A DNA stretch of 64,000 nt from Gammaproteobacteria bacterium (ex Lamellibrachia satsuma) (GTDB lineage: Bacteria > Pseudomonadota > Gammaproteobacteria > Chromatiales > Chromatiaceae), in NCBI GenBank assembly GCA_019623805.1, contig CP053680.1, positions 3,078,001 to 3,142,000 on the forward strand. Reading direction: 5' to 3'. A model generated the notes under the pieces. It made no database searches. It saw only the letters and a program-made list of their open reading frames with translations, and was not told where the DNA came from. Numbering within the stretch: position 1 is the stretch's first letter; the number at the start of each line of letters is the position of its first letter. Positions 61,380 to 63,328 of this stretch are shown here, one piece after another. The translations under genes and the position numbers were made by a program.

Positions 61380-61492
61380 CATGATGGTATTGTCTTGCGC
61401 GAAAGTGGGTATGACTGAGGAACCGGATGCGAGAGAACCGCACGTCCGGGTCTGTGCAGGGGACGCCGGCTAACCGGCATCCCCACTGCTAG
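61380..61492 (+). mobile_element. 3' end of a group II intron (degenerate)
   Basis: Bases 61420-61452 (GAACCGGATGCGAGAGAACC, then GCACGTCCGGGTC) fold like intron domain V. The next hairpin, 61459-61484 (GGGGACGCCGG-CTAA-CCGGCATCCCC), resembles domain VI. The usual AGC triad of domain V is AAC here, which suggests it is inactive. No reverse transcriptase coding or 5' intron part is seen upstream, so only the end of the intron remains. Its left limit is unclear. Confidence 0.55.
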
Positions 61493-61522: not shown

Positions 61523-61816
61523 CTATTCAGGACGGGGCAGAGGGGGGGGTGGCTTCTGGGTATTGTTGGTCTGAGGGTAATAATGGCCGGGATATCCCCA
61601 GCCATAGGGGTTGCCCCAGCCGTAAGGGCTTCCCCAACCGTAAGGGCCTCTCCTGCCATAAGGGCCATTCCAACCATAGGGACCGCCGCGACGCCAGTGG
61701 CGTGGATAATAATCATCGTCATCATCAAAAAAACCAAAAAACGCATGGGACTGCTGGGTTGATAAAACACCGACCAAAGCCACCAATGCCGAAGTTAGCA
61801 CGCGCATCTTTTTCAT
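61523..61816 (-). CDS. Gly/Tyr/Pro-rich secreted protein, sulfur-globule-protein-like
   Basis: 97 residues. A signal peptide (MKKMRVLTSALVALVGVLST then QQSHA|FF) is followed by FDDDDDYYPRHW, five PYG repeats (GPYGWNGPYGRRGPYGWG at the start) and a YPQTNNTQ-PPPPLPRPE tail. Small secreted Gly/Tyr-rich proteins like this coat the sulfur globules of purple and colourless sulfur bacteria. GGAGAA lies before the ATG. A different overlapping frame (61489-61770) is not coding. The sulfur-globule role is inferred from composition and from its partner at 63005. Confidence 0.75.
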   Translation of the reverse strand: MKKMRVLTSALVALVGVLSTQQSHAFFGFFDDDDDYYPRHWRRGGPYGWNGPYGRRGPYGWGSPYGWGNPYGWGYPGHYYPQTNNTQKPPPPLPRPE

Positions 61817-61859
61817 TCTGGTAGTTCTCCTCGACTCAATTTCTCTTTTCGCATGTTAC

Positions 61860-61905
61860 TAGGGCTCCGTCGATGGGCATCCGCAAAGTGTTAACAGGCC
61901 CTAAT
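61860..61905. repeat. Short dispersed element shared with 9.58 kb (copy 2)
   Basis: TAGGGCT at the left and GGCCCTAA at the right are inverted; the core GGGCATCCGCAAAGTGTTAA is the same as at 9594-9613 except one base. It lies upstream of the 97-residue secreted protein gene. The rest of 61906-62194 shows no gene; a loose TTGAAA (62019) and CATACA (62043) with an 18-base spacer could be the promoter of the next gene. Confidence 0.7.
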
Positions 61906-62194
61906 GCAGACGATGTACCAATTTTAGATGATTGAGCCTTTAATGATAGCCGAAGATTCGTTTAATGAAACCTGATTAGATGCCGTCAGGGCATGTGTTT
62001 TCCTTGGAGGCGTGGCGGTTGAAATAAGCCATTGTAATACGCCATACATCTGCGGAATAATCTATAGTTGAAAACATTCTGTCCAGGGTTTGAGTAATGG
62101 GGATGATCACGCATTTCTGATCCCACCCTTGGCAGGTTTAATGGCTCAATCAGATATTTATCCAGGCTCAATTACACAGGTTGGAGAAACCGAT

Positions 62195-62875
62195 ATGAAG
62201 ATATTGCTCGCCCTAATGGCATTCGGCCTTTCATTTTTCGCCCACGCCGGGAAGTTTGAACCCTCTTTGGTGGTGCAGACAGGACAGATGCGGGAGAGCG
62301 ATCTGATTGTTCGCAATATCACCGATCTGACAAGCAAGAAGACCTGCCTGACCTTCTACATTCGCACCAGTGGCACCAGTCCGATCACACACTGTTATGA
62401 TGCCGTGTCGGGATTTGGCGCCAACTTGAATCAGGTGGGGCATATCAAGGCAGATGACCTGGTCGTGCGTAAACTGGAAGATACCAAGAACGGCATGTTC
62501 TGTCTGACCGCCTATGTGAGTACACCGGGCACCTCTCCGGCAGTGGACTGCTACCCCAACAAGCAAGAGTTCAAGGATCATATGGTTGAATCCGGCCATC
62601 TGCGGGAAGGCGATCTCGATGTGCGTCGGATCATCGATGCCGGCAACATGAAAACCTGCCTGGTAGCCTATATCACCACCAAGGGAACTTCTCCTTCTCT
62701 CGTCTGCTATGATTCCCCGGCCGGCAGCAAGGGAGGTCTCTATCAGTCCAGTTATTTGAAAGAGGGTGATCTGGTGGTACGAAAGGTTCTCGATACTCAA
62801 AGTAAAAAGGCCTGTCTGGTGACCTATGTCAGTACAGCGGGTACATCATCCCATATCTATTGCTATGATGAGTAA
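62195..62875 (+). CDS. Secreted protein of four 52-residue repeats
   Basis: 226 residues from the ATG at 62195, with GGAG upstream; an in-frame ATG at 62090 has no signal sequence. A signal peptide (MKILLALMAFGLSFFAHA) is followed by four repeats spanning about 30-69, 82-120, 134-172 and 187-225. Each has D-L-x-V-R, two Cys 16 residues apart, GTSP or GTSS and CYD/CYP. The Cys fall at 51/67, 103/119, 155/171 and 207/223, an exact 52-residue period, so each unit probably closes one disulfide. Charged residues differ in each copy. The family is not recognised. It is flanked by the two Gly/Tyr-rich secreted proteins. Confidence 0.85.
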   Translation: MKILLALMAFGLSFFAHAGKFEPSLVVQTGQMRESDLIVRNITDLTSKKTCLTFYIRTSGTSPITHCYDAVSGFGANLNQVGHIKADDLVVRKLEDTKNGMFCLTAYVSTPGTSPAVDCYPNKQEFKDHMVESGHLREGDLDVRRIIDAGNMKTCLVAYITTKGTSPSLVCYDSPAGSKGGLYQSSYLKEGDLVVRKVLDTQSKKACLVTYVSTAGTSSHIYCYDE

Positions 62876-63004
62876 GACCGCCTACCCAGCATTGACCTGT
62901 TGGGGTCGCCAGTGTTACAAAACCTGAAGTGAGTCTTTTCCTTGTTAAACCAATGGACTCGTTACAAGAGTTTGCAGGACTTTAATTACAGAGGTGCCCA
63001 AATC

Positions 63005-63328
63005 GTGAGTAAACAAAAACTGATCATCTATAGTGCCATGCTTGCCATTGGTGGTAGCAGTTTGGCAATTGTTCCCAGCGCATATGCGTTCAATATGGGC
63101 AACATGATGAATCCATCAAAATGGATGAATAATAATAATAGAGACCGGTATTATGATGATGACTATTACTATGACCGCGGTCGCTATGGTTATGGAGGAC
63201 CTTACGGTGGCTATGGAGGACCTTATGGTGGCTATGGTGGTCCCTATGGTTATCCTGGTTATGGCTATGGAGCTCCCGGTTATCAGCAGCAGAATAACCA
63301 GCCGGCGCCTCCCCCACTGCCACAATAG
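63005..63328 (+). CDS. Gly/Tyr/Pro-rich secreted protein, sulfur-globule-protein-like (paralogue)
   Basis: 107 residues from a GTG at 63005 with AGAGGTG upstream. A signal peptide (MSKQKLIIYSAMLAIGGSSL then AIVPSAYA|FN) is followed by RYYDDDYYYDRGRY, three GPYGGYG-type repeats and the tail YQQQNNQPAPPPLPQ. The layout (signal, DDDYY, PYG repeats, NNQ-PPPLP) is the same as in the 97-residue protein at 61523, so the two are paralogues. The repeat region is made of 21-bp units at 63191-63253. A terminator follows. Confidence 0.75.
   Translation: MSKQKLIIYSAMLAIGGSSLAIVPSAYAFNMGNMMNPSKWMNNNNRDRYYDDDYYYDRGRYGYGGPYGGYGGPYGGYGGPYGYPGYGYGAPGYQQQNNQPAPPPLPQ
63191..63253 (+). repeat. 21-bp tandem repeat inside the secreted protein gene
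   Basis: Three in-frame units (63191-63211, 63212-63232, 63233-63253), the first two differing at one base and the third at a few. Each encodes YGGPYGG or a variant. The number may vary between strains. Confidence 0.85.

Follow-up and report, generated by a model that had tools for sequence, protein, structure and literature searches.

The closest described systems are the sulfur globule proteins (Sgps) of Allochromatium vinosum. SgpA, SgpB and SgpC are small secreted proteins rich in glycine and aromatic residues, with PYG-type repeats and proline-rich tails, and without cysteine in the mature part. SgpD, also a secreted globule protein of this sulfur bacterium, is a predicted coiled coil, and its gene adjoins a hydrophobic/amphiphilic exporter (PMC10386293). 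A third group is formed by long Chromatiaceae proteins of the type NMMNPSRW...FRPMNQY (e.g. G030:C1:59861-60361), about 150-250 residues in length, which combine a signal peptide, an NMMNPSKW-like head, an acidic-tyrosine segment and GPYG repeats with a coiled-coil-like stretch and an FRPM tail. Long proteins of this type, with an EALKRRIEELE coiled coil and the FRPMNQY end, were seen in many genomes of the order (L061-L084), and they are possibly the 'sulfur globule family proteins' of PMC10892978. The reference Sgps were taken from G030, the genome of A. vinosum DSM 180 (replicons of 3,526,903, 102,242 and 39,929 bases; PMC3368242).

The locus described here lies in the window, i.e. the whole analysed stretch of 64,000 nucleotides, and consists of the genes P1, MID and P3 (Table 1). 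P1 and P3 share all the listed properties of SgpA, SgpB and SgpC and are similar to them in precursor size and make-up (glycine 15-19%, tyrosine, tryptophan and phenylalanine together 19-20%). They differ from these in their strong Asp/Tyr segments, their PPPLP-type tails and their linkage to MID; the NMMNPSKW head is found in P3 only. The head, acidic-tyrosine segment and GPYG repeats of P3 follow the layout of the long proteins, and P3 differs from them in its shorter length and in having neither the coiled-coil-like stretch nor the FRPM tail.

Table 1. Positions of the features. Coordinates are those of the window unless a genome (G) or locus (L) is named.
Feature	Position	Strand	Remarks
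Group II catalytic intron match	61418-61492	+	just beyond the 3' end of P1; 30.4 bits, below the gathering score of 40; probably a remnant
P1	61523-61816	-	97 aa; mature start FFGFFDDDDDYY, tail PPPPLPRPE; SgpC-like layout
P1-MID divergent intergenic region	61817..62194		378 bp; promoters presumed here
MID	62195-62875	+	ATG at 62195; 226 aa; four repeats
P3	63005-63328	+	GTG start; 107 aa; FNMGNMMNPSKW head, YYDDDYYYDR segment, tail PAPPPLPQ
Intrinsic-terminator-like hairpin 3' of P3	63368..63393	+	CGGGGCG-AAAAA-CGCCCCG then T7; read by eye
AcrB-type exporter gene after P3	63666-64000	-	continues in L020:3667-6798
dsrA, two copies in the window's genome	G000:C1:484081-485286, 1002196-1003398		dsrB-like match beside each
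SgpD-like gene in the window's genome	L170:1336-2118	-	adjoins an SgpA/B-like gene
A. vinosum SgpA	G030 2182670-2183119		assigned here by position and composition, not annotation
A. vinosum SgpB	G030 421899-422273		assigned here by position and composition, not annotation
A. vinosum SgpC	G030 about 1.5137 Mb		assigned here by position and composition, not annotation
A. vinosum SgpD	G030 about 2.841 Mb		beside exporter; assigned here by position and composition

Architecture and genomic context of the locus

An earlier note on this DNA had placed three genes here, with a common order in the two outer proteins and four repeats in the middle one. All three genes were confirmed at their positions, and the repeats of MID have an exact period of 52 residues. 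Also the common order was confirmed: P1 and P3 both have a signal peptide, an acidic-tyrosine segment, PYG repeats and an NN/Q-rich and PPPLP tail, and the local alignment of their mature parts scored above all 400 composition-preserving shuffles (z 8.7). The FNMGNMMNPSKW segment is additional in P3 and absent from P1. Signal peptides, judged by eye from a hydrophobic core and an AxA-type site, were present in P1, P3 and their relatives, and from the sequences we infer that P1, MID and P3 are exported. No family scored above the cut-off when P1, P3 and the set of PYG proteins were searched against NCBIfam, or P1 and P3 against Pfam. An alternative TTG start of MID at 62090 would give a protein of 261 residues; it is the ATG start that agrees with the alignment of the relatives. 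The promoter and terminator scans gave chance-level results only, including chance-level sigma-70-like matches in the P1-MID intergenic region, and the hairpin at the end of P3 was absent from the output of the terminator scan.

The position of the AcrB-type exporter gene beside P3 recalls that of the exporter beside sgpD. No exporter reading frame of that length was seen at the corresponding place in the sister genome G004 (L021), and the exporter was rejected as a part of the unit, the neighbours beyond the three genes not being conserved.

The window's genome is complete (4.32 Mb), and the genome-wide statements rest on profile searches. It contains the two dsrA genes and soxB; two dsrA genes were present in several relatives too. 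Elsewhere it encodes several SgpA/B-type proteins (SASAWWGG...GDFSFGMSGSARGSGYGRGY...GAPYG) and an SgpD-like protein with a WWG start, in which an SgpA/B-like head is fused to a coiled coil. As canonical Sgp-like genes are located elsewhere in the genome, P1, MID and P3 are therefore additional to the canonical set.

The same locus is present in the same-genus genome G004, apparently from an endosymbiont of the tubeworm Lamellibrachia anaximandri. An SgpC-like protein with the motif AFWGPFDWF had no match in the two same-genus genomes with the locus and was present in G001, G003 and G005, while in G002 neither was among the matches listed. The SgpC-like gene of G001 (L176:2759-3142) is apparently frame-disrupted inside its tandem repeats. 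It is possible that one coat type replaces another within the genus, six genomes being too few to say.

Comparison of P1 and P3 with known sulfur globule proteins

In the shuffle tests, P1 reached z values of 8.8 against SgpA and 4.2 against SgpC and only 2.2 against SgpB, and P3 reached 5.5, 5.6 and 3.5 against SgpA, SgpB and SgpC, respectively. The yardstick pairs SgpB-SgpC and SgpA-SgpC gave 4.2 and 2.8. Except for the pair P1-SgpB, the similarity of P1 and P3 to the A. vinosum proteins is mostly at or above the level between SgpC and SgpA or SgpB, a comparison whose bearing on kinship is limited by the low-complexity sequence; resemblance between proteins rich in glycine and tyrosine is a weak sign of common descent. 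P1 is connected to SgpC by a chain of intermediates, formed by Ca. Thiosymbion proteins and the same-genus SgpC-like proteins. P3 scored z 11.7 against the long NMMNPNRW protein of A. vinosum, and on its sequence it is clearly related to the long form, which occurs in A. vinosum and is widespread in the order. The long NMMNPSRW proteins are not encoded beside MID except in L047, and in L042 and L053 they lie within a few kb of it. We consider a role of P1 and P3 as globule coat proteins likely.

Distribution of MID and its linkage to PYG genes

The scan of 84,980 species genomes for MID identified 26 loci. Apart from the window's genome, three MID carriers were present in a draw of 369 Gammaproteobacteria; one is apparently identical with L041, so that two were new and the total with the window came to 29. 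The carriers with genus-level names are sulfur bacteria, including the Lamellibrachia endosymbiont, Sedimenticola, Ca. Venteria, Ca. Thiosymbion and Achromatium. dsrA and/or soxB were found in all 29, some as fragments at contig ends, and no MID was found in the search of plasmids. L044, a MAG labelled as a Halobacteria archaeon, has a gammaproteobacterial-type MID locus and dsrA and groups with gammaproteobacterial neighbours in the MID tree; the archaeal label is probably wrong. In the order sample MID was present in nine of the 147 genomes, A. vinosum and most others being without it. Because A. vinosum lacks MID, the protein is not universal and not needed for globules as such.

A PYG gene adjoins MID in 25 of the 29 carriers, where adjacency within 2 kb would be expected by chance in about 0.2% of cases per genome (about two PYG genes per 3.5 Mb). 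The PYG gene is located downstream on the same strand, divergently upstream, or in both places, the last in the window, L029 and L030. It is convergent with MID in L047 and cut by the contig end in L052, and no PYG gene lies beside MID in L034, L036, L048 and L049. In Achromatium and Ca. Thiosymbion, PYG genes are located at other places in the genome. The genes flanking the MID-PYG group vary between genera while the PYG linkage is kept. The upstream and downstream arrangements follow the clades of the MID tree, and the small clade of the window has both. Two or three different PYG genes were seen around MID in L042:2024-7422, L053:4778-5816 and L054:1668-5816.

Another explanation of the locus is that the PYG proteins and MID form a structure of the outer surface or matrix, the carriers having sulfur oxidation in common by lineage only. 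Low-complexity Gly/Tyr-rich secreted proteins are also found in unrelated envelopes, and dsrA was rejected as a discriminator within the order, being over the cut-off in 131 of the 147 genomes and thus nearly universal there. Several carriers bear the label Thiogranum or Ectothiorhodospiraceae, several are MAGs, and some are without known intracellular sulfur storage. According to PMC8877833, true Ectothiorhodospiraceae have no Sgps and form their sulfur deposits outside. Thiogranum is excluded from that family in the same paper, which does not cover the carrier MAGs (PMC8877833). On the other hand, dsrA or a part of it was present in seven of the eight genomes with a PYG-profile match at the class level, against 112 of 369 over the cut-off overall, and P1 and P3 resemble proven Sgps about as closely as the members of the yardstick pairs resemble each other. 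The carriers also include Achromatium and Thiosymbion, genera known for intracellular sulfur. A surface or matrix structure is on these grounds unlikely.

The earlier note had read P1 and P3 as candidate globule coat proteins of a sulfur bacterium, with MID as a possible globule or envelope component, and most of the tests applied here favoured this reading. The genome belongs to a sulfur oxidiser and contains canonical Sgp-like genes besides, and the coat reading gains support from P1 and P3 matching Sgps about as well as SgpC matches SgpA and SgpB. The PYG linkage favours the suggestion made for MID, which in the comparison across sulfur bacteria turned up exclusively in genomes carrying Dsr and/or Sox genes. 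Occurrence of the three genes in bacteria without any sulfur storage, named there as evidence against the idea, was not found among the carriers, although several of these are MAGs of lineages not known for sulfur storage.

The PYG proteins encoded beside MID tend to share a C-terminal ending. The pattern [LIMV]P[EQ]-COOH was present in 23 of the 27 PYG proteins beside MID and in two of the 29 others compared, counts that are not adjusted for relatedness, the second set being mixed and assembled by hand from fetched sequences. With its PRPE end, P1 of the window falls outside the strict pattern, while its sister in L029 ends in PLPE; the Ca. Thiosymbion relatives without a detected MID also end in P[EQ]. 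The apparent enrichment of the motif beside MID is treated as a lead.

Repeats, cysteines and predicted fold of MID

The self-identity of MID is 39% at lag 52 and at most 18% at every other lag from 30 to 79. Each repeat has one pair of cysteines with a constant spacing of 16 (51/67, 103/119, 155/171 and 207/223), and all eight are invariant in the alignment of 27 sequences. No Pfam family scored above the cut-off with the window protein or any of its homologues; below it, the window protein matched KIAA0319 (15.3 vs 27 bits) and CdiI_N (16 vs 25 bits). NCBIfam gave no match to the window protein, nor did the PDB to the MID profile when searched by sequence. MID is apparently an undescribed repeat protein.

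AlphaFold, with the 27 sequences as input, predicted 16 strands in four four-stranded units both for the MID of the window and for a 53%-identical relative (mean pLDDT 88 and 87; a prediction, not a solved structure). Whole-chain structural matches were poor (TM about 0.2). Stretches of two units matched propeller blades at Z 7-9, values that are also attained by many unrelated folds. As in beta-propeller proteins, the modelled unit is four-stranded and occurs four times, and pairs of units resemble blades; unlike these, MID has no sequence match to any propeller family, and the structural matches span about two blades each. The hemopexin-type four-blade ring was not among the structural matches listed, and no link between propellers and globule coats was found in the literature searched. 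We read the model as blade-type beta repeats, whose four units may close into a ring. MID was rejected as an SgpD, which is a coiled coil, since the MID model is all-beta after the signal peptide, with repeats of 52 residues.

The lectin RSL is among the two-blade matches (Z about 7), and some carriers are symbionts. This would suit a role of MID as a small lectin or adhesion protein of propeller type, serving contact with hosts or surfaces and standing beside coat genes by history. Many unrelated propellers match at the same level, however, most carriers have no host label, and it is the PYG linkage that is kept when the other neighbours change, so that this reading appears very unlikely.

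The invariance and regular pairing of the cysteines, in carriers that are Dsr/Sox bacteria, could also mean that MID handles sulfur and is not a scaffold, its eight cysteines acting as redox-active pairs or moving sulfane sulfur towards or away from the globule, and P1 and P3 forming the coat. In the model the pair of each unit is located on two consecutive strands, as structural disulfides would be, and MID has neither a CxxC motif nor a match to an enzyme or cofactor family. Sulfur handling is accordingly distinctly unlikely, and one disulfide in each repeat probably stabilises MID.

Proposed role and implications

We prefer to interpret the three genes as an accessory locus for the sulfur-globule coat, with MID as the organiser of the coat proteins, and judge the chances of this to be slightly better than even. 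P1 and P3 would be exported and form part of a Gly/Tyr-rich layer around periplasmic sulfur droplets, like SgpA, SgpB and SgpC of A. vinosum. MID would be exported together with these two as a partner protein; with its blade repeats it would be a scaffold to which coat proteins bind, and would in this way organise or anchor the coat; for this partnership the balance of the evidence is narrowly favourable. From sequence we infer both the globule location of the three proteins and the binding between MID and PYG proteins. The C-terminal [LIMV]P[EQ]-COOH tails conserved in the neighbours would be the most plausible binding site, or else the aromatic repeats of the same proteins, and direct recognition of the tails is a tentative proposal. 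Equally doubtful is the idea of an undescribed protein family, with MID as its founding member, that organises globule coats: periplasmic four-blade proteins recognising the [LIMV]P[EQ]-COOH tail.

The coating, sizing and anchoring of periplasmic sulfur droplets are poorly understood. Most of the coat components known so far are proteins of low complexity, which makes sequence searches for them difficult. MID aligns like an ordinary protein and is a reliable search query, and through it candidate coat genes can be located in uncultured sulfur bacteria, animal symbionts among them. It is also a foldable partner protein for which a specific binding hypothesis, that of the P[EQ] tail, can be put forward. 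If the family of tail-recognising organisers is real, globule coats would have a dedicated assembly or anchoring factor.
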